NCBI RefSeq assembly: GCF_024713945.1 | Contig: NC_134677.1 | Coordinates: 3,103,001 to 3,167,000, forward strand | Source: Dermatophagoides farinae | Lineage: Eukaryota > Arthropoda > Arachnida > Sarcoptiformes > Pyroglyphidae | Length of the DNA stretch: 64,000 nt | Reading direction: 5' to 3' | Shown: positions 1-62,067 of the stretch, piece by piece | Layout of the letters: each line of letters begins with the position of its first letter | How positions within the stretch are numbered: the first letter of the stretch is position 1 | Notes under the pieces: model-generated | The model's input: only the letters and a program-made list of their open reading frames with translations | The model's database searches: none | What the model was told of the DNA's origin: nothing | Position numbers and translations under genes: made by a program

Positions 1-3000
1 CTACTGGCCCAACGGGACGAGATCGGTGACTTTTTGGTTTTCGAATGGAATTTTCTTGCTTCTCTTGAACGCATCTTCTGCCCCTACTCAAATAAACTTG
101 ACTAGCTGTGCAAAACTTCTTCGACAATTGTTCAACTGATAATTGCCGACAATTTCCGTTATCAACAGATTCATAGTGATCATCGCATGCACATATCGAA
201 TGACGATTACCAGATGTTCGTAATGTTAGCTGTTGGCAACTGTGTTTTCTTTTTCCGATTCTACCACCAAGACATACCTCTGACCGAGTATCATTATGTT
301 TTGGAAGCCATACCTTGAGTTGAAATAAGGGTCCACGTTCTTCGTGTATGAAATGGCTAAGATTAGTTTTTAAATCAAATTGTTGAATGGAGCCATGTTG
401 AATTTCAATCCAGAACAAAGTATTGTTAAAATAAACCAGTGAATTGGCTATATTAATGCGCGATGATTGCCATATTCGTTCTCGTCTCGGCATATTCTCT
501 GTCAGATAATTCATTCGATTAATTGTCTTTTCGCCTGTATCAGTCCAATAAAGTAATGCCTGATCAATATCAATGGCTAATGAACTAACATAACTAGTGG
601 AACGATCCAAATGTTCTCCAAAAATGGTCACCTGTGTTCCATCCATGTTGGCCTTACGTATAGCATATGGATACAACGTTGTAATCATGGTATCATCATC
701 TCTTTCCTTATTATCAGTCATAATTGTAGCAGTGAAAAACATGAGACCACGTTTCGAATCTAAAACCAAGGCTCTTGGCTCAATAAGATTATTGATAAGA
801 ATTTTTCGCCAAACTTGCCTCTCGGATTCAGCAACGAAATTGATCACCGAAATAGCAGATGATTCAAGTAGATAAACATTGTAATTACACCAATCAAATG
901 AAATTGTTTCGATTTGTATAGGATGGTTTGTTGTTGTCGGAGTGAAAAATTTCAAATCGATTCTTTTGGTTCGATTCATGTGACTTATCTCTTCAATTGA
1001 TGATAATGATTGCGTAATACGTTGGCTAAGATCCTCATACAGAAGATTTGTTTTGAAATCGTCAAGATAATAAATATTGTTATCGAATGGATCAATATCG
1101 AATGTAGTGGGCGATCGACTAAATGTGATTGGCGACGCATTAATAGTTGTATTGTCGTTGTTACCTTGCTCATTGGATTTTCGGGCATAAGCTATTTGTC
1201 TAAATTGTATTAATCCTGGCTGTGAACGAGAATATATGAGAACTGGATCATAATGAGCTTTAAAGTTTTGATCATTATTCGAAATCATCAATTCGGTTAC
1301 ATTTTGATTTTTCTGTTTCTGTGTTGTGCTTATCAGTGTTGAATAAATCATCATCATATCACCGTATACACTTTGATCGCTTTGTCTCATAATCATCATC
1401 TGACCATCATTCTCATCCATCGTGATCAACGTCAAAGTCAATGTTATAATTGTATTTTTCATGGGTGTTGTGCTGTTTGATTTTAAAGGTATTTTTATAT
1501 TGCTCGCATTAGTGGGTGTTATCTTTTGATGTATCGTTTTCTTAGATGTTTCATTTCGACTCAACAAATAGAGTGAATTATCATTGGCAATCATAGCCAT
1601 GGATGCCATCTGTAACCAGCTTTCCATTGTATATCTACCCGAAGACATTATTGATCCAGTATGTTCGATTTTGAATCTGTATCGTTTATTACCGTCATAA
1701 TCGACTGATTGAAGAAGATCTATATGAAATTTTCGCCAACTTAGTCAACAATTATGTCAAGTTATTTCTTGCTTACCTAATTTAGTATCGATCCAATATA
1801 AACGCTGTTTAACATGATCTAATGCTAGATATTTTGGTTCGACTATAGAAATACTAACGATTCGTTTCATTTGTTTATATCGATCATCACCATCATTATT
1901 ATTTATTTGAAATCGTATAATTGCAGGTGATAATAATTGACTTGGTCGTTGCACTCGATCTCCTTGTCTTGATATAAACACAAATCCTTTATTTGAATCG
2001 TATTGTAAATCCAATGGCCTACTTAAAATTCGGTGATCTACTCGTACGATACATTTGCTGATGTCACATTGGTAGAGCAATTCATTCGTTCGATCTAATA
2101 GATACCATGAATTTCGTTGCCAATCATGGGCGATTCGATCAATCTGATTAGCATCTACATATGTAGGCAATAATAATCTCGATGGTTCTGATGATGATCC
2201 AAATCTTAGGCAATCGATAGATTGTCGTTCAATCCAACAGAAATCTGGTCCTCTAATCGGCCAACCTGTTGTTGTTGTATGTTCGCCATAATGAATAAGA
2301 GGTGTTCGTTTTATTGTCGAATTGTGCGACCAATATTCGAGAGCTATCTGTCTTATATGTGTTTGATTGAAATGTACAATTGAAAGTGATTTCGTTCGAT
2401 TCCATTTCCACTGGAAATCGTTTGAATTCAATAATTTCAGCCGTCTTTCATTGATTTTTCCGTAGCAAACGTCATCTGATTCATCACTTTCGTCTTGTCC
2501 ACCATTATGATTAGAGTATTTACCACAATCCGGTTGGCCATCGCACATCCAACCACGTGGGATACATTCACCTGATCGTTGACATTGAAAAATTTCTTCA
2601 TCACGACCATGATGATCATAACCACCACATGGTTGACACCATTCATCAGTGATTGTAATGGTCGCAGCACTTTGGCCAGATTGTGATCCATCATCATCAT
2701 TATGATGATTGGTATCGCTATGATCATTAGCCAATATTAATCCTTCATAAGATTTGAATACTTGATCATCGAGAACGACATCCTCGTCGAATAGATTAAA
2801 ATCTGATTGTAACCATTCATCAGAACCATCACGGCAATCAACAATCTGATCACAACGCCATGATTTCGGTATGCATTCGAATGATGTTAAGCATTGATAT
2901 TCATTGTGACTGTCACAACTGAAGCTACCATTCTCTGTATGTAAGCCATATTCAATTGTTGATGCTGTTGACAACATAAACACTGTGAGCAAATGGATTG

Positions 3001-3037
3001 TGATCAATAATTGTATATTCCATTTTGTATGATCCAT
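1..3037 (-). CDS. LDL receptor-related protein (LRP-like), 3' end beyond window
   Basis: A secretory-pathway receptor of the LDLR/LRP type, probably for endocytosis or signalling. Exon 1 is 1777-3037 and exon 2 is 1-1719, still open at the edge. The 57-nt intron has clean GTAAGC/ATAG ends and splits the Asp codon after WIDTKL. From Met 3037 there is a hydrophobic signal segment (residues about 8-27), then two LDLa cysteine modules (from about residue 41 and about residue 134) with CDxxxDCxDGSDE-type calcium-binding acidic residues. YWTD-propeller repeats follow, including LYWIDTKL at the junction and LLYWTDTGEKTINRM in exon 2. A cysteine cluster near the left edge resembles a degenerate EGF-like module. 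An upstream in-frame ATG at 3133 exists, but the later Met gives the better signal peptide. No transmembrane segment is in view, so it should lie to the left. The LRP subfamily cannot be assigned. Confidence 0.8.
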
Positions 3038-3133
3038 TTGGATGTATTCACAATGACACCACTGGTTTGTTTCGGGCACCATTAAAAAGTAGAGAAAAAA
3101 TACATCAAACAAACAGCAACAGTTTTCAAGCAT

Positions 3134-4176: not shown

Positions 4177-4182
4177 TTTATT
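4177..4182 (-). terminator. Poly(A) signal of the Lys/Tyr-tailed gene
   Basis: AATAAA on the minus strand, about 150 nt past the stop codon at 4331. It is the first canonical hexamer downstream of that gene. Confidence 0.5.
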
Positions 4183-4330: not shown

Positions 4331-4781
4331 TCAATACTTTTTCTTCTTTTTCTTATATTTCTTTTTCTTCTTCTTCTTTTTCTTTTTCTTATACTTCTTC
4401 TTCTTTTTCTTCTTATATTTCTTCTTTTTCTTTTTCTTGTATTTTTTTTTCTTTTTTTTCTTTTTCTTCTTTTTATATTTCTTTTTGCCATAACCATCAA
4501 GCATATAACCTCCACCGTTTGGTGATGCTAATAATGTACCAACTTCCGATGCCATCGGCATTATCGAATCAGGACCATTTTTATTGATGGTTTGAATGAG
4601 CGCGGTACTATCCACCGAATCTAGCGATGTTAATCCACGGCATTCGATCCAATGTATCCAGGTGAAAATGACCACCAGGGTCAGGACACCCAATCGGGTT
4701 GTCTATGTAAACATATATAATTGGATAAATAATAGAAACAAACTATGTTTGTTTGCCAAACGGGAATTAATCACTTACCAT
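4331..4781 (-). CDS. Small secreted protein with a polylysine/tyrosine tail
   Basis: No family recognised. The first coding exon holds only the ATG (4779-4781). A 76-nt intron (GTAAGT...CATAG) joins it to exon 2 (4331-4702), giving 124 residues. Residues 1-24 form a classic signal peptide (basic TTR, then LGVLTLVVIFTWIHWI, ending ECRG). A short acidic/Ser-rich segment and a Gly-rich linker (NGGGYMLDGYG) follow. The last 51 residues are 45 Lys and 6 Tyr. Tyr spacings are 4, 12, 8, 8, 12 and 7, as if built from KKKY tetrapeptides. A TATA box and a canonical splice pair support a real transcript. The role is unknown: a polycation with regularly spaced Tyr could bind anionic polymers or membranes, or be cross-linked in cuticle or a secretion. 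The alternative is that the tail is a slipped purine microsatellite. Confidence 0.7.
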
Positions 4782-4838: not shown

Positions 4839-4884
4839 CTATGTTTGAATGATGAATGATGTTTGTTGATATGAATCGAATTCA

Positions 4885-14754: not shown

Positions 14755-17700
14755 TTAAAACCAGCTAGTTTTAATTATATTTTGGCCAATTTTGTTTACA
14801 TTGCCATCATTATGATGATTGGATGAACCATAGAATTCGTTATCATTGTTGTAATTGTTTGATTCGAATGATGTCCAATTTGTTTGTTCATTTTGATTTT
14901 CGAATTTTTTCTGTTGTTTTTGTTGTTGTTGTCCATAAAACAATGAAGAGAATTGATTTGCCCATTCGTTGACGAAATTCGATACGGTATTGTTTTTGAG
15001 TAGTGTTCCATTCTGAAGTTGGTCGTAAATTTGATCTACACGTTTTGTTAGACTTGGTTGTTGTTGGTTGAAATCATTCCAAACATTCATCATTGTTTGT
15101 GGAATATATTTCTCCACATTTCGTCGTACTAATTGATGAATTTCGTAGTCACGAATCTTACGATACAATTGTCGGCAGTGTTCATACTGAAAACAACGAT
15201 CTTCGACCATGTTGAGAAGTTTCCATTCGAATTGTTCAACATATCGATATAAAGCTGTCAACATTTCGTCTAAAATAAGTTCAATATCGTATCTATCGGA
15301 CCATTGTTCATAGCATTGGCTAACTTTATCCAATGTTTGAATAATCATTCGGGCAATGTAATCATCACTGTTTTGCATTTTATGCCGAATTTGTTGACAT
15401 TCATCTACAATCAGCATGACCAATTCACGATCAATTATTTGTCGTTTAAATAGAAGCCATTTATAACGAATTTCATCTTTAAGTTCTTCAAACATTTGGT
15501 TTCGCCATCCATAAAGATCTGTTCTTTCGGAAAATTCTTCGATACGTTTAGGTTGAGAACCATCAAAGACGGATTTGAGCAATTGCCATACATTGAATTT
15601 AATATCCACATAACTTTGTCTGATGTTTTTCGGTTCCAAATGAATAGAGTACGAGCTTCGGTCACCACCAAAAATGATGTCATAATATTTTGTAACATTT
15701 AATTGCTGGTTAGTTCCAAAGTAGATTTGACCCCATTGTTCTCTACCATATCTGTTCACATTGTGCCATTTGGCACCGATCGATACCGGTGATAAATGAC
15801 TAAACATGGTAAAGTTGACAACTCGATTAGGACCGCTTTCATTCATTGTTTCCACTGCGAACAAAATACTATGATTCACTGCGGTTGGTTGTTTTACGAA
15901 TTCCATTGAAATAGAAACCGTTGGCTTTTGTTGGGAATTTCGTTCATCACCAAAAATCATCTGCAAACTTGAACATTTATGCTGCATTTTTTGCTGTCCA
16001 TCTACTTCAATGAACTTTTTGCTCTTTTCACAAACACTATCAATTGAATCAAAATTGTATCTCAATTTGAAAACTTTCGGTTCATTTGCTAAAAATTTTG
16101 GTGATCGCCATTCGACTCGAACTTCTTTTGGATCTTGTTCTTTGTGAACATATTCCACTGTCATGTCGACAATCGGAGTTCGTGAACCTTTTTTCAATAA
16201 TTTTGATTTGACATGCTGTATGGGTCTATAATTGGATGGCTGAGAAGATGGTGTCTCATCTTCATGAGCATAGTTGATTTCATTCAACAATTGATAATCA
16301 ATATCTCCTGGAAGATACAAATGTGCCAGCGTATTAATTCGAGTTTGCATTTGAACTAACATTGGCGGTGGTTCCACATAGGTTGCAATCAATACCGGTT
16401 TTCCATGATCTCTTTCGATGGCCATTCCGGATATTTGCGGTGATTCTGATTGTTCTTGGTAACGGAAAAACAATTCTACAAGGTACCGTTGATTGTATCG
16501 AGATTGTTCTTGAGCTTCCACACGCAATACTTTCACCTGACCAGTTTGTTTATCCAAAACAATTTCAGCTTTTCCTTCGCCACTATAGTCACCACTCAAT
16601 CGACCTTCATAACGTACGATCTCATGTGTTGATGGTCGTTGTGAATCATCACGATGTATTCGATCCAAATTCAAATGCAATACTTCATGGCCATCAACCT
16701 GGACGGTTGCTTCACGTTGCCAATGTCGATCATCACCAAAGCGATCATTCCATTTAGCTTGAATTTCTTGGTTTTGATATTTGAATCGAGCATCCACATT
16801 ATCGAATGTAGCCGGATGATGCGATTGGATCATCATTTCGAATCTTGGTTCAGCCCATCTCTGGAACATGATTTCTGCCCGATAATCGCGACGCCATTTG
16901 CCGAACCAGTTCAAAACTAGTTCCAATTTTTTTTCTTGTTGATAGCTTACAGCAAAGACCAAATGTGAATTGTCACCGAAAGCAGCTTCCACATCGATTG
17001 TTGGAATTCGATCCGTAAATGAAACAATTTGAAATTTTTTCTGTACTGCTTTAGCAAATAGATCAACATTCACGTCAACAATACGACCGTTTTTATCATA
17101 TACGTTAAGCTGCAATTTACGTTCCGGTTTATTCCATTCTAGTTTTGCCTTCTTCTCTACAGTTGAGTTTGGTGAATCAAAATTCAATTCATAAGTGATG
17201 GCTTTTGAATCACTTTGGCCTTTTATGTGGATCGATTTTTTCTGATCATTTGATCCCATTTGAAGCGATAAGATTTGTCCAAAATTTTTCTTTTTATTTG
17301 ATCGATGTTCATATTTAGCTTGTGTGTTCATGAGATCCCATTCATCTTTCAAATCAGTTTCGGTTTTCATTTCGAATTCCACTGATCGACTATTCCGTAC
17401 TTTGAGCCTGGCTTGACCAGTCAACAGATTTGTTTGACCATTACGGCATTCGACCAAAACATCATGTGTGCCTTCTTGTTGTTTGTATTCATGTTCAAAT
17501 TTAGCCAATTTCTTATCATTACTTTCCAGATTTGAATATTGAGCTTTCATTTTGATCTGACTTTCTAGGATATTTTCAAGTTTTTCCATCTGGCCTTCAC
17601 ATTCAATGTGATGTTCAAACCATTGCCCTTGAATCTTGGCTTTATTCTGCTGTGATTGAATTTTAGATTCAATCATAATCTGTTTGGTTTCATCTTGTGG

Positions 17701-20700
17701 TTGTCCCCATGCACAATGTACGCGAAAATCTTTGATATTTTTTGCTTTTGTTTCAAAACGAGCCCGTCGATCTTGAAGTTTGTCATGGAATTCAAAATCG
17801 ACATGTCTATTATTTCTGTTGATCATTGCGTTTAATTTGATTGGAAATTTTTTCAGGTTAGATTCAGCATTTAATTGAAATGATTGCCTTGCTACGAATG
17901 CTGCATCAAAGGAAATCAATTTATGGCCAGATTTGTTGGTTTCCGAAGTTAGACTGAATTCTCGCCAATCTGGATCCCATCGAGCTTGACTATGGTGTTC
18001 GAAATTGTCGTTTTTTTCGTTCTTCTCGCCGATCAGATCAAATCGAACTAAACGATCATTAAGTCGATGCTGCAGTTTTCCATGAATTGTGGATGATTCC
18101 CATTCGATATCGGTGTGATCATGACATTCGTGATCAACAATGACTTTGAATTGTGATGAATGTTTCTGACCGTTGATCTTCATTAGCCATTGCTTTGGTT
18201 CCGTACGTGTCCATTGTAACGAACCACGGTAAATACCATCTCCTGATTCAAATTGAGTTGATAATTCTTTCATAGGCACAAATCCCATATGCACAACATT
18301 CTTATCACCAATGATTGCTTCCATCGATGATTTCTGTCCATTTCGGAACATCAAATCACCTATTAATTGGATCAATTGATGATTATTTTGTTTAGTTTTT
18401 GATAAAAACTTTATTGTTGGAAAATTAAATTCCTCAAATTCGGTTCGATGATCGATACCGTTGAATAATTTTGTCTTCAACACGACCAATGCTTTTTTCG
18501 GTGACCAAGCGAATTCAGCCTGTGAGAAACGTGTACTAATTATCAATTCGTGTACATATTTTTGAGCCATTTGTTCTTGTCGATTGTAAACTACATCAAA
18601 CAACATTCGTTCACCAAGATAGTTTTTCATGTCAAATGTAATTAATTGACAACAATCAATGATTGTTGCATATGGATGATGTTGCCATTTAGCTTTTGTC
18701 TGATGAATGATCTGTTGTCCAGGAGCTTTAATATCGACCATCAACTGATAAAAATTTGGTTGAACTTGTTCGATTTTAATCTGACCATGTAAATCACCAC
18801 CAAATTGACCATCAAATACGGACATTTGATCTGATTGAGTGTGGAAATTGAATTTTAACCAATTTCTTTCATAATGACGTGTTTGTGAATCAATTTGTAT
18901 CTGAGATATTTCTTGATTTGATTGTCCGTTGACTTGAATTTTGCTTTGATGTTCAATTTGAAGTTGTGGCAATTGAAATTCAACCATTACATTTGAACCA
19001 TTTTGTTTATTGTCCAAATGTTCGTATTGGACATTTAGAATGAAAAATTCAGATTCACTTTGAATATCGAGCTGATTTTGTTGGTTCAGATGTGCTTTAA
19101 ACATGAAGATGGTTTGATCTTGTTTTTTGGTCAAACTTGATACATCCAACACGTTTTGGTTCATGTCAACTGATGTTTCATGACTGTAGCCGGATTTTTT
19201 AGCTGTAAATTTTCCATTCAGTTGATTATTTCGAACGTTCCTTTTTAAATGGGCACCAATTTTTACGTTATTATACGATCCGGTGTTAAATGCCAATTTA
19301 CATTCACAATTATCATTATCATCGTGATGATGATGAATATCCAATTCGTAGATCATTTCTCCTTCACGTCGCATGGCGTTTTTCAATTCGAAATTGCCCA
19401 TATGTTTGTCGTGCAATTCAAAAAGTCCCATTTGTCCACAATGACCCAAGAGATTATTCTCAAAGAATGTTTCATATTGAAATTTACGTACATTGGCGAT
19501 CAAATCTATCATTCCTTCATATTGATCAATATCACTTTCGAGCGTGTATTGAATATGTAATTGTTTTACTGCCCATTGTGGCAATTCATTAGATCCAGAT
19601 TCCGGTACGGCTGCCATTTCAATCTTTCCACGATATTTACCAGTTTCAATTTCATCAATTTTATCCTTGTATGAGACGGTAAATTTAAATTGATGGAATT
19701 TGATTTCACCATCACAATGCGAATGAAATGGTTTTGATAAAGTTTTTTCAGAATGAAAATTAGATTCAATCAATAAAAGATGCCGTTTTTTTTCTTCGAT
19801 TTTTACTTGATTTGTCGACACTTTTCGCTCTTCACCATATTTGGTTACATCGGTGATGGCATTCATGACATAATGAATGTTTTTTGGTGTAAATTGAACC
19901 TGGATTTCCGTATCTAAACGAGTTGATTCTCGATCATGAACATTGTGAATTTTTCTTGTGGTTCGTTCGATTCGAAATTGATTCATTTCAAGATTCTTAC
20001 CGAATTTCCAGACAAATTCATCGTCCATTAAATCTGGTTGTCGTTTTTGATTGTATGAAATGTCCACATTCAATGATGGATATTGTGACGAAAGTAACTT
20101 GTAATGGAGATATCGTTTCAAGTTTTCGATATTATCAGTTAGCCATGGCAAACGATAATCGTAACCGTTTAATTCATATTCAATATCGATTGTTTCGTAT
20201 TCATTCACATTAGACCATTGATTGTATCGGATTTGGTTTGTTGATTTAATTCGTTTCGAATCTTTGACAAACAACCATCCATGTTCAACATGAGCTTCGT
20301 AGATTTTTATTTTTGTTTCAGTTGAAATTTTGAATGGCCCATTATCATATTGACCGTTTTGGTTGATGATCATATCGACGAAAGATTGATCATTAAAATC
20401 AAATTTAATCCATACTTTTTGTTGGCCATCTTGCTGTTTTTGATAAGTGATCATCCCTTTACTATCGATAATTTTCATACCTTCTAGAGGTTGTAAAACA
20501 GCTTTAACATTGAATTTTGCATCTTTGGGAGAGTTCGATCCATCTGATTGAACTTGTCCATCAACATTGACATGAACAAGTTTAACGTTTTGTTCGTTTA
20601 CAATTTCAAAGAGAAATGACTTTTGTTGAGTACCATCGAATAGTTGGAAATGTGCCTGGAATTTTCGTTTCAATACATGAATGAAAAAATTAGCAGATAA

Positions 20701-23700
20701 TTGATCATCGGTTTGTTTCACAGGTAATTCGACTACAAATTCTGTTTCGAATCGTATCTGTTGATCTGATTGATTGGCAATTGGTGTTGCTATACTAAAT
20801 TCAAATTTCATTCTGCTTTCATCTTCTGGAATCAACAATGGTGCCAAAAATTGTTCAGGCATCTCGAGGGTCATTTCAATACCTTGCATTTGTTCGGTTT
20901 GCTTACGTAAAGTGATTTCATTATAATCAACCATTATTTCTTTCATTTCACTTTGTTTCAACAATGAACTGGTCAATATGGTTTTTTTACAAAGACTTAC
21001 ACCCAAAAATTTGGTCATTAAATCAGGCGTACATTTTGTAACCATTGTTGGTTCATTATTAAAGTGACCAACTTGTGAATGTCGACCTTTGATGATTTTC
21101 GTTTCAGATTTCCACCATACTTGCTCCTGTTCGGGCAAAAGAAATTTCATTCGTAATTGTTTAGCTTGCTTGATTTCCATTTGAAAATGTAATGTAGGTG
21201 CCGCAAGTACTTGACTGACGATTCGGAATTGATCCATCATGTTTTCTTGGCCTTCAATTCCAAAACCAACATTTGTATGAGCCACAAAAGTTGGTTTTAG
21301 CATCAACTCCATGAATCCATCCATACCATCGGTTGATTGATACTTATTGACAACGATTGCTTCCAATGAACCAATATAGGTAGAATTAAACTCGAAATAC
21401 ATGGGAACACCTGAAGAAGTTTGGTCAATGACTATACGTTTTTGCCATGGCATAATGATCATTGTTTCATCTATACGAATTGGCAACCGTTTGCTTAACT
21501 GTTTCCACATGTTAGACAAACAATTTTCACGGTCATCGCTATCATAGAGGAATATATTTTTACCATCAACATTGACTAACAACTGAATTCGTCGATGAGA
21601 TGACATTGTAGCATTTGATGATGTCATTGATTTAACGATGGAATCTAATTGGCCAAATAATTCGCTATCGATTTGATGTTTTGACAATGTATGTTTGATA
21701 TTGGATAGAATTTTATCGCTGATCGAACCTTCAAAACCTTCTTGACGAATAGTGACTTCTGCTACTCCCATTTGTCTATCGGTTTTGCCCATCGGAATGG
21801 TTACGTTGACCGTAATTGAACGTGGAATTTTGAATGTCTCGTTTCCATTAGGCATAATTACATCGGTTTCAATGAAACTTCCAAATCCTGTTTTTTGTTC
21901 TACATAGTCGTATTCATAGTGTCGGGAAAGGAATACTTGCATTAATGATGCTGGTTCTGGAAATTCAGGAGCATTATCAGGCAATGATGAGTGTTTGACT
22001 TTGTTGAGTGTATTCCTTAGAATTTTCTGATGTGAACAAACATAATTGTACACATGTCTGTGTGGTGATTGTTGTTCTTTTTCAATTACGTTTAATATTT
22101 GTTGCAATTCTTCTACAGTGGTTCCAGTTTTAATCAACGTACGATAACTGATTATACGAATCTCGTTACTTTCATCTGGATTGGCAAAAATTTTCAGTAA
22201 ACTTTGTCGTATTGTTGGTGTAGGTTGAACGGCATCGAAGGATTTGATGGCTACGACTCGAATCAGATCGCTCCATTTTGAATTTACAATTACTGGCAAT
22301 AAACGTTCTTGTTCGGCTACCATAGTCCATGGTGAAACATTTTCCAATGCAATAAACAATCGTACATTTTGCACTTCGGCTTTTTCATTCTGAATATTTT
22401 TCATGATAATGTCGACAATTTTCTTGTACATTTCTTCTTTGAATTTAATATAATCTTGATGTTGTTGAATGGGAGATTTAATCAAAGCTGAAATACTGAG
22501 TACAATATCTGAATCATGGATGTTATCCAATAATTCTGGTAAAATCTGTTGTATAGCCACCATTGATGGATATTGAGCAAAAGCCATTGAAGTAGCTAGA
22601 TATCGTAAACGTTCATTGGCCATTGGATCTTCATCTCGTTTCTTATTCAAACGTAACAATTCATCACGAACAATTGTTGCCGTATTTTCATGCATAATTG
22701 AAGCAGCTGTATCGACAAAAATGTCTTTCAATTTTTTTCCTTGATCACCACAAAAATTTTGTTGTTCATCAATATTAATTTGTTCATCCCAAATTGATTT
22801 GATCGTTTCGGCCGATTCATATCGGAAAGCTTGTGTCAATTGTTGAACATAATCTACGGTTTTCGTACTGACACGATTCCAATTTTGTTTAATGTCTTTG
22901 CAAATCTTTTGTAAGACAGTTTTGAGTTCAACTTTTTCCATCACCGACGATTTAGATCGAGATTTTAATGATGATGATTTTTTTAATCGAAAAATATCCT
23001 GTAACCATTGTTGTTGATTGTTCAATAGAATAGAATTGCTTTTTTTGAATTCTTGAGAATTCTTACTGGCTGATACTTGTTGCAGATGAACACGTGATAT
23101 CAAATCAATGTCGAAATGATCGAACAAAGTATCCAATGAACGAGATGAATGACATTCCGATTCAACAACACGATGCGATTCAATTCGTTGTTCACATTCC
23201 GAATGAGCTTCACGGCTTTCTTCGATAAGGAAACCAATGTCGGAAAATTCATCCGATTCTTCAAGATTGATGCCTGAACAAGATAATCGATTGTCAACGT
23301 TAAAACACGGTTAATTGACAAAACTGAACTTACATTTCAGCAAATCTTTTCGTTTCGAAACGGAATATCGATCTTGACCATTCTCGATGACATGATAATC
23401 GGTATTACATTCACCATGGTAATCAGTTTCGACCACCTTTCAAAAGATTCATCAATTGTAAATGATATGTGGTTTGATATTACAAGTTGAAAATTACTTA
23501 CTGTTTGATCCTTTTTGTTGTTTTCAATATTCGAGATGGTCTGCAATGCGGAGATAATACTTTTTTTAACATTAATCACAAATGGTTCCTCTTGTTCGTG
23601 TTCCGGAGAACAAACTTCCGTAACAATACCATCTTTATAAGAGAAAATGATTGGAATTTGCAATTGACGTTCATAACGTTCGATTTCTTCATCTTTATCT

Positions 23701-29471: not shown

Positions 29472-29945
29472 TCATCGTTTTCCACCAACACGTGGAGCCT
29501 TGGCCATGACGGGTTTGGTTGCTTTTTGCGCTTGTTTTGCCTTTTGGCCAGATTTCTGGCCAGCTTGGCTTGATTTTTTCTGTCCTTTGGTTGATCGTTG
29601 TTTTTCCTTAGCAGCACGTACAGCCTGTTCACGTTGGGCTTTTCGGACTTCGGGTTTCATATTACGTTTAGCCAGAATATCATTCAACGATGCACCCACA
29701 ATGGCCCGTTGGTATTTAGTTGTTTTACGGCGTCGTTTTTTGGCCAATTCAACTTCCGAACCTTTCTTGTGTTTACGACGGTAAAGGACAGTCCAGGTAG
29801 TTTTACGTGGATTTCTTCGCATCAAATGAGATGATTCACATTTGGAATTCATGAATTGGAATACTTTTCCATCGATTTTAACCAGGCGTTTACCGTGGCC
29901 GGGGTATATTTTATACCCACTAAACGAACAAAGTTCAATCTTCAT
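29472..29945 (-). CDS. RPL24: Ribosomal protein eL24
   Basis: 157 residues in one coding exon. It begins [20 protein letters not shown] and contains [48 protein letters not shown] and [18 protein letters not shown], ending KAPRVGGKR. All are signatures of the large-subunit protein eL24. The Lys/Gln/Ala-rich C-terminal extension is normal for metazoans. The ATG is 9 nt into an exon preceded by a TTTTTAAG acceptor. A 67-nt intron (29955-30021, donor GTAAGA) separates it from a non-coding first exon, a usual arrangement for ribosomal protein genes. Confidence 0.97.
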
Positions 29946-30021
29946 TTTGATCACCTTAAAAATATAGCACAAAAAAATTATAATTAACTATCAAAATTAA
30001 CAATTTATTTCATATTCTTAC

Positions 30022-59492: not shown

Positions 59493-61088
59493 ATGTCTGA
59501 CGAAGAAGAATACAGGTATTTAACTTTACCTTATTAAAATTTAAACGAATATTCTAACTTAATTATGACCACCAGTGAGGAAGAGATTGAAGAGCCAGAG
59601 CCAGAGGTCAAGAAGCCTCAGCCACCGAAACAAGCAGAAAAACCAGCTGAAGCTCAATCGGAAGCTGAAGCTGCTATGGATGAAAAAATCCGTAAGAAGA
59701 AACAGGAAGAAGAAGAACAATGGTCTGAGTACATTGAACAACGGAAAAAGCAAAAACAAAAAGAAGAGGATGATTTACGAAAGCTTAAGGAGCGACAAGC
59801 TCTCCGTAAACAAAAACGAGCTGAACAAGAACGTATGCTCGAAGAATGGAGATTAAAACAGGAAGCCCAGCGTATTAAGGAACTCGAAGAACGACGATCG
59901 AAAGAAGCCGAAGCAAAACGCAAACGTCTTGAAGAAGCCGAAAGGAAACGAGCTGCCATGCAAGCTGCATTGAACAAGCAGAAAACCGGTCAAGACAAAG
60001 TGGAACGAAACTTTGTCATTACAAAACGATCGGATGGAGGACCGGGTGCCGCCCTTGGAAATAGTGGATTTGATCGAGTAAGTTTCAGTGCATTTCCTTT
60101 TAGTTTCTGTCTCTCTCTCTCTCACACACACAGTTACTGTTTTAGTTCTCGAACGTAATATCGGCTCGATCCGAGATGGGCAAAACCAAAGAACAACTTG
60201 AAGAAGATAAACGTATCGCTATGTCGTTTCGTGTTAAACCCTTGGACATTGATGGTCTTTCGGTAGATGACCTCAAAAAGAAAGCTTCTCAACTCTGGGA
60301 TATGATCGTACAACTTGAAAGCGATAAGTACGATCTCGAGGAACGTAAAAAACGCCAGGACTATGACGTGAGTTTCAAAAGAGATTCTATAGAATATTCA
60401 ACACATTTACTGATTTTTCCAATTGTCTTAGTTGAAAGAATTGGCCGAACGTCAACGTCAAATCAATCGAAACAAGGCCTTGAAAAAGGGTCTGGATCCA
60501 GAGTACGTGTATTCTACTCATTAGTAGGAATAATTGTTCCATATATAAATAAATCTCTTTGTTCTTATAGTGCTCTGTCAGGCAAATTCCCACCAAAAAT
60601 ATTGACCGCATCCAAATACGAACGACAAGTCGATCGTCGAACATTCAACGACAAAAAGAGCTTGTTCGAAGGCGTATGTTTTCTATTTCACATTGGTTAA
60701 CTCGATAAATGACCTTTCTTTTTTTTACACTTGATAGGGCTACGACGCCATGGTCGAAGCACAATTGGAAAAGATGTGGCAAGAACGTGTTAAAGAATTC
60801 AAAGATAAGGATAAATCCACACTACCTAAATGGGATCCTGAACATCCCAAAAACAAGGAGACCTATGAACCTGGCGCTCGCACCTATGATGTGAATGATG
60901 AAGATGACCTCGACCTGTTGGATGCCTTCATTAAACCACCGGGCTTTGATTCCGCCGGTGGCGACGAGGAATCGACACCAGCTCAAGTACCAGCATCCAA
61001 ACCTCCACCGCCTGCCCAAGAGGAAGAAGAAGAAGAGGAGGAAGAAGAAGAAGAAGAGGAGGAAGAGGAAGAAGAAGAAGAGGAATAA
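59493..61088 (+). CDS. TnT: Troponin T with glutamate-rich C-terminal tail
   Basis: Six coding exons: 59493-59515, 59576-60077, 60146-60367, 60432-60502, 60571-60673 and 60738-61088. Total 423 residues; introns are 60-68 nt with matching phases. It begins MSDEEEY-SEEEIEEPEPEVKK. A long charged coiled coil follows (KKKQEEEEQWSEYIEQRKKQ, the tropomyosin-binding region), then KRIAMSFRVKPLDIDGLSVD, LKKKASQLWDMIVQLES and YDLEERKKRQDYD, which are the TnI/TnC-binding T2 signatures, and KFPPKILTASKYERQVDRR. The C-terminus ends in an uninterrupted run of more than 20 Glu encoded by GAA/GAG, a feature known from arthropod TnT. It anchors the troponin complex to tropomyosin on thin filaments. A possible 5' UTR acceptor (TTTTTAG near 59473) hints at an upstream non-coding exon. 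Confidence 0.96.
61020..61085 (+). repeat. GAA/GAG triplet tract encoding the TnT tail
   Basis: An in-frame purine microsatellite of about 22 codons immediately before the TAA stop. Mixed GAA and GAG codons suggest selection for glutamate and not only recent slippage. Confidence 0.85.
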
Positions 61089-61195
61089 TCTTGTATACAT
61101 GATGCTGAGCTTTGCTTCTCATGTGTCTCATTTATTGATTGTCTATTTATTTCTATTTATGTAAACGTACGTAAGTACGCCGACTAATTTGAACC

Positions 61196-61601: not shown

Positions 61602-61798
61602 TTTAGTTATTTTTTATTTTTTTTAATAACGAAATGAAGATCAAAAATACACAAAATAGCCGAATTCTCGTAATCATTGTATAAAATGTTTTTTATTGCG
61701 ATAATTTAACGAAAAATACAAGAAATGATTTGAATTTCACTTTTCTACTTATTTCAACCAAAAGAAAGTTTGAACGACTTGTAAAAAATGCAAAAAAG

Positions 61799-61866
61799 TG
61801 CGGACTACCGGATTCGAACCAGTGACTTTTAGATTTCCTTTAAATAACCGGAAGTTCTTCAGTCTT
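61799..61866 (-). pseudogene. 3' half of a tRNA-Phe-like gene
   Basis: On the minus strand this reads AGACTGAAGAACTTCCGGTT, a variant intron segment, then TCTAAAAGTCACTGG, GGTTCGAATCC and AGTCCGCA. It keeps the anticodon loop, intron region, T-arm and 3' acceptor strand of the intact neighbour. The 5' acceptor strand and D-arm are absent and replaced by AT-rich repeat, so it cannot fold. Confidence 0.8.
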
Positions 61867-61971
61867 TATTGAGATAATTTAACGAAAAATACAAGAAATG
61901 GTTTGAATTTCACTTTTCTACTTATTTCAAGCAAAAGATAGTTTGAACGACTTGTAAAAAATGCAAAAAAG

Positions 61972-62067
61972 TGCGGACTACCGGATTCGAACCAGTGACT
62001 TTTAGATAACCGGAAGTGAACAGGAAGTTCTTCAGTCTAACGTGATACCCAACTACACCAAGTCCGC
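61972..62067 (-). tRNA. tRNA-Phe (anticodon GAA) with a 22-nt intron
   Basis: Read on the minus strand from 62067. Acceptor GCGGACT pairs with AGTCCGC (7 bp). The D-arm has stem GTGT/TCAC (three pairs plus a T-T) and contains the box A-like TGGTGTAGTTGG. Anticodon stem TTAGA pairs with TCTAA (5 bp), with loop CTGAAGA, so 34-36 is GAA. A 22-nt insert after position 37 begins AACTTCC and ends CCGGTT. The variable loop is AAGTC, the T-arm is ACTGG/CCGGT with a perfect box B GGTTCGAATCC, and the discriminator is A. The mature length is 74 without CCA. G34-A35-A36, A73 and a D-loop G20 agree with known tRNA-Phe identity elements. A T6 Pol III terminator follows at 61970-61965. The intron sits at the canonical site and its TTCC could pair with the anticodon. 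The acceptor sequence is not that of typical animal tRNA-Phe, so it could also be a tRNA-derived repeat. Confidence 0.75.

Follow-up and report, generated by a model that had tools for sequence, protein, structure and literature searches.

The tick basic tail secreted proteins (BTSPs), which include Salp14, ixonnexin and BSAP1, are acarine, small and secreted, and are described as carrying a lysine-rich C-terminal tail (PMC9779611; PMC8294578; PMC5859130). The canonical BTSP domain has six cysteines before the tail, and the tail itself may be acidic or missing. In KRMP-3, a lysine-rich matrix protein of the pearl oyster, a lysine-rich region of 43 residues is followed by a Gly/Tyr region (PMC4498902). 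The hypothetical cuticular proteins (CPH) of the mite Dermatophagoides pteronyssinus are short, secreted and of low complexity, and have no known domain; 89% of them have no cysteine in the mature part and more than 90% consist of over 50% nonpolar residues (PMC12105342).

Here we analysed a 64-kb stretch of the Dermatophagoides farinae genome (the window; C1:3103001-3167000 of a 62.4 Mb, 22-contig genome), which contains a predicted gene for a secreted protein with a tail of lysine and tyrosine only. By function, this protein is nearest to the tick basic-tail proteins and the pearl oyster KRMPs, and by the features tested it is a member of neither. It shares with the BTSPs an acarine source, a small size and a lysine-rich C-terminal tail, in which 45 of the 51 residues are lysine, and like ixonnexin it ends in an aromatic residue (Phe in ixonnexin, Tyr here). 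Unlike the BTSPs, its predicted mature part contains none of the six conserved cysteines, and its tail consists of K and Y throughout. Compared by description with KRMP-3, the order of the regions is reversed: the Gly/Tyr part is limited to about 10 residues, GGGYMLDGYG, and the pure K/Y tail follows. The protein resembles the CPH proteins in being short, predicted to be secreted and low in complexity, in having no known domain (nothing above cut-off in Pfam) and in having no cysteine in its mature part. However, it does not share their predominance of nonpolar residues, as lysine and tyrosine alone account for 54 of the 102 mature residues (46 Lys and 8 Tyr). We tentatively favour the reading that the Lys/Tyr-tail protein is an orphan, secreted as part of a matrix or of a secretion.

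The locus and its predicted protein

The gene lies on the minus strand, which the preliminary description had not given (Table 1). Its ATG directly adjoins a GTAAGT donor, and joining it to exon 2 yields a product of 124 amino acids. In the unspliced frame a TAG is found directly upstream of exon 2, and the hydrophobic start therefore depends on splicing. The reading frame, the ATG/GTAAGT join and the hydrophobic start bear out, as a prediction, the earlier proposal that this is plausibly a gene of two exons with a secreted product. Exon 2 ends, as described before, in 51 codons for lysine and tyrosine only. The tyrosines occupy tail positions 4, 16, 24, 32, 44 and 51, in agreement with the spacings first reported (4, 12, 8, 8, 12 and 7).

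Table 1. Predicted features of the Lys/Tyr-tail gene, in window coordinates
Feature	Position	Strand	Basis or remark
TATA box, TATAAA	4885-4890	-	exact match, motif only
Inr-like TCATTC, presumed transcription start region	4854-4859	-	A lies 33 nt from TATA start
Start codon and end of coding exon 1 (Met only), context GTGAAAATG	4779-4781	-	sequence, splice join
Predicted phase-0 intron, 76 nt, GTAAGT...TTTACATAG (ends ACATAG)	4703-4778	-	sequence only
Exon 2	4331-4702	-	reading frame
Signal-peptide-like stretch, residues 2-22, TTRLGVLTLVVIFTWIHWIEC; predicted cut after Cys22	4640-4702	-	hydropathy, -3/-1 residues
Cys-free linker, residues 23-73 (51 residues), ending GGGYMLDGYG	4487-4639	-	only stop-free frame of six
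Tail, 51 codons (45 Lys and 6 Tyr), last residue Tyr	4334-4486	-	codon reading
Stop codon TGA	4331-4333	-	sequence
AATAAA, candidate poly(A) signal, ~150 nt past stop	4177-4182	-	motif
Second AATAAA, within coding exon	4580-4585	-	motif

The N-terminus resembles a signal peptide, as judged from its hydrophobic core (best 11-residue Kyte-Doolittle mean of 2.70) and from the -3 and -1 residues (Ile and Cys) only. The predicted mature part of ~102 residues, 51 in the linker and 51 in the tail, contains 46 Lys, 1 Arg, 8 Tyr, 5 acidic residues and 0 Cys. Its computed net charge of ~+42 and pI of ~10.5 bear out the earlier statement that the tail is extremely cationic. A Pfam search with the 72 residues that precede the tail found no match at E 10, and a search that included the tail gave eight weak matches, all under the cut-off. 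The single match of a PDB sequence search (E 5.2) is meaningless. An AlphaFold prediction from the single sequence presented the tail as one long helix with high pLDDT, and blocks of the linker below 60; we distrust a helix in a free poly-Lys chain. RNA folding of the tail and 3' UTR revealed nothing special (z -1.19). No domain is recognisable in the protein, and its tail would be lost in proteomics that relies on trypsin; the two predicted tryptic peptides are GLTSLDSVDSTALIQTINK and NGPDSIMPMASEVGTLLASPNGGGYMLDGYGK.

Judged by the search patterns employed, no other genome site equals the tail. In the window, the next-longest run of K/Y-only codons in any frame is 9 codons, all AAA. The DNA-level pattern K3-Y-K3 occurs at 35 sites in the genome, five of them in the Lys/Tyr-tail gene. 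Of the other 30, the 25 read in context (14 on the plus strand and 11 on the minus strand; the remaining five are all on C10) extend to a maximum of 9 K/Y codons. The reversed control of this pattern matches more often than the pattern itself (24 and 26 versus 17 and 18), and therefore the short pattern is not enriched and the long run is the unusual part. The longer pattern Y-K7-Y is found three times in 62.4 Mb, twice in this gene and once in a pure A21 tract, and its reversed control once. Searching the genome with the whole of exon 2 for a second gene copy gave 26 scored candidates with one match at E 0.001, and no paralogue. The same search with the pre-tail part, at E up to 10, gave a single scored candidate and could miss distant relatives. 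A query of 35 K/Y residues had zero matches and missed its own locus as well, and was hence uninformative.

Possible function

We tentatively propose that the tail serves as a gene-encoded polycation, either in a coat that the mite secretes or in the product of a gland, with a structural or adhesive role and with its tyrosines as anchor points. The small secreted protein would consist of a signal peptide, a Cys-free linker and the Lys/Tyr tail. Polyanions, surfaces or acidic matrix proteins may be bound by its tail lysines. The tyrosines, spaced along the tail, could be coupled by peroxidase (dityrosine) or through quinones, and lysine may be the second partner in such cross-links. The terminal tyrosine may shield the lysine run from basic carboxypeptidases. 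We infer secretion, binding and cross-linking from the sequence. Lysine together with tyrosine or DOPA are also the working residues of mussel foot proteins and of synthetic Lys-DOPA or Lys-Tyr copolymers. Natural Lys/DOPA adhesive proteins contain other residues in their repeats, and any DOPA in the mite tail would be hypothetical. The cysteine-free mature part, a trait of 89% of the CPH proteins, speaks for a role in a matrix or secretion. Points against it include the lack of the nonpolar predominance of the CPH proteins, the low number of tyrosines, with 6 in the 51 tail residues few for a cross-linked matrix protein, and the slowing of ribosomes on poly-Lys, which would limit the abundance of the protein.

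In its most specific form, which we regard as rather doubtful, this proposal describes a gene-encoded copolymer of Lys and Tyr that the mite secretes. It would be a polycation of just two residue types with aromatic anchors at intervals, constrained at the amino-acid level, encoded by mixed codons that keep poly(A) runs short, and acting as a cross-linkable glue or coating. Such a secretion would be a type of protein for which the open-access literature yielded no description, nor did we find a described K/Y-only secreted protein there. If expressed, the protein would be nature's equivalent of the Lys/Tyr and Lys/DOPA polymers made in the laboratory, and a natural experiment on how animal ribosomes make 45 lysines in 51 residues. 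In that case it might also be a component, so far unstudied, of the cuticle or secretions of house dust mites.

The genome encodes enzymes that could perform such cross-linking. It contains 61 matches to haem peroxidases and three to lysyl oxidase, the latter at one locus and one of them with an internal TGA. The multicopper oxidase (laccase) domains PF07732 and PF00394 had no genome match by the method that found the peroxidases, lysyl oxidase and histones; the control genomes that gave laccase matches are prokaryotes, and an intron-split animal gene could be missed. Since the former enzymes are encoded and the laccase domains gave no match, coupling through dityrosine or lysyl oxidase is likelier than laccase tanning. 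Lysyl oxidase and haem peroxidases are common in animals, and their presence does not make the Lys/Tyr-tail protein their substrate. Laccase is the enzyme that tans insect cuticle. As a separate observation, D. farinae may lack it.

The main rival of the structural or adhesive reading is a soluble cationic effector, in which the tail would be antimicrobial or would neutralise polyanions (DNA, teichoic acid or heparin-like sugars) and not be built into a structure. We consider this possible but on the whole improbable. The net charge is well suited to such a role, and there are precedents in ticks: the basic tail of Salp14 is described as governing its anticoagulant effect (PMC8294578), and the lysine-rich C-terminus of ixonnexin is the part through which it is proposed to act (PMC5859130). 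However, the Salp14 authors cite that the charge of polylysine alone is insufficient for inhibition of prothrombinase (PMC8294578). The cysteine-rich carrier domain is absent from the mite protein, and the spacing of the tyrosines would be superfluous in a soluble effector. Dust mites are not known to feed on blood, which also counts against this role.

Codon usage in the tail

The preliminary description argued that, because long lysine runs stall ribosomes, keeping the tail implies a purpose. This argument is weak. Iterated AAA codons lower output more than AAG codons (PMC4363877), and the tail is rich in AAG (26 AAG, 19 AAA, 5 TAT and 1 TAC) with a longest A run of 9. In another study, endogenous yeast polybasic proteins are reported not to be targets of ribosome quality control (PMC8102910).

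Variation among the tail lysine codons is synonymous only, with all 26 G at third positions. At first and second positions no A-to-G change is seen, versus ~19 expected from a crude neutral, transition-only estimate that uses genome GC and assumes that AAA arose from AAG by point mutation. AAG accounts for 26 of the 45 lysine codons in the tail (58%), compared with 80 of 500 (16%) in 11 long open reading frames nearby (binomial P 2e-10) and 24 of 132 (18%) in 10 histone stretches (Fisher P 1.6e-6; these are 10 of 38 matches, several of them near-identical). The long open reading frames and the histones are AAG-poor, so that neither general codon choice nor that of histones accounts for the excess in the tail. 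We also used as a codon control an exon at 29475-29987 (minus strand) of the window, which we take to resemble that of ribosomal protein eL24; 5 of its 29 lysine codons are AAG. High expression as the cause of AAG richness was not supported, as the histone stretches and the eL24 exon are mostly AAA.

The codon choice of the long open reading frames would give a longest A run of ~26 in the tail. A run of 9 is not unusually short given the tail's own AAG share (shuffle mean 12.3, P 0.18), and therefore the AAG share itself is the signal. Neighbouring AAA-AAA pairs are rarer in the tail than in shuffles (3 versus 6.8, P 0.02), and the result for AAG-AAG pairs is less clear (10 versus 12.8, P 0.09). 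Selection may have acted against ribosomes sliding along stretches of AAA (PMC4363877), or the tail may derive from (AAG)n; the AAG richness fits both. Because the variation is synonymous only and AAG exceeds the controls, the tail differs from a random purine tract and seems to be preserved as protein, with an (AAG)n origin possible.

The suggestion that the tail grew from KKKY units found no support at the codon level. No repeat is detected at lag 4 (P 0.84), and the longest repeated codon string is no longer than in shuffles (6 versus a mean of 6.8). Lag 5 scores best among 16 lags, with a P of 0.03 that is not significant for this number of tests. The spacing of the tyrosines, with five of the six lysine runs equal to 3 mod 4, has a P of 0.005 for one class and of up to 0.019 for any class.

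These data bear on a second alternative, that the gene is a genuine orphan with a secreted product, and that its tail arose as a by-product of (AAG)n-like slippage and is tolerated without a function of its own. The AAG enrichment fits such an origin, and triplet slippage of (AAG)n would also produce phase-coherent G without selection. Four tandem-repeat calls with 75-77% matches cover the tail, and simple repeats are reported to make up 11.41% of this D. farinae assembly (PMC11074847). Nevertheless, the six in-frame TAY codons of two kinds, the absence of a repeat unit among the codons and the unchanged first and second positions lead us to regard slippage without function as unlikely. Two other purine-rich tracts passed the same filter among 59 sources and 255,489 bases, too few for a firm control: one has G over all phases (10, 9 and 12), and the other is an AAG/AGG array with 72% in one phase. 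At 61018-61093 of the window, an AAG/AGG array has a plus-strand frame that encodes Lys/Arg, and a shifted frame encodes Glu only, followed by TAA.

Evidence for a gene

Several features indicate that the Lys/Tyr-tail locus is very probably a real gene. The pre-tail part (216 nt) is open in one of six frames, and its GC content of 0.458 exceeds that of the intron (0.26) and of either flank (0.29 each). Its codon score of 3.0 is within the coding range (median 5.7) and above 26% of 696 coding windows, which come from the open reading frames on which the score was trained. Of 433 overlapping stop-free windows outside the long open reading frames, 122 match or exceed this score, and they may include unannotated exons. 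On both strands of the window, ATG/GTRAG sites occur five times. Only the one in Table 1 can be joined to a frame of at least 60 amino acids with a hydrophobic N-terminus, when introns of 40-159 nt are allowed and with a hydrophobicity threshold set with the Lys/Tyr-tail case already known. Transcription and splicing of the gene are predicted from these features. The TATA box, intron and AATAAA put forward earlier are present as sequence motifs; the pairing of TATAAA with an Inr-like motif is weak evidence, as 5 of the window's 76 TATAAA sites have it. The AATAAA within the coding exon could lead to premature polyadenylation, and the A-rich tail is prone to internal priming by oligo-dT.

A chance open frame or a decayed gene would agree with the small number of codons (124), with intron and promoter signals that are motifs, and with a search that turned up no homologue. 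The sole open frame of six, the jump in GC and the splice join to a hydrophobic start, allowed at one of five such sites, make this very unlikely. Finally, an intracellular protein, with its hydrophobic start unused and its lysine tail directing it to the nucleus or nucleolus, is highly improbable: poly-Lys is a common nuclear or nucleolar signal and in-frame Met codons are present downstream of the start, but the n-h-c pattern of the N-terminus is that of a signal peptide, and its -3 and -1 residues are acceptable.

Other features of the window

The neighbouring gene, at 1760-3133 on the minus strand, has LDL-receptor class A domains. On the same strand, an open frame at 14758-23310 continues for 2851 codons without a stop, which would be a great length for one exon. 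At 61692-62038, a 173-bp unit is present in two tandem copies that match at 93%.
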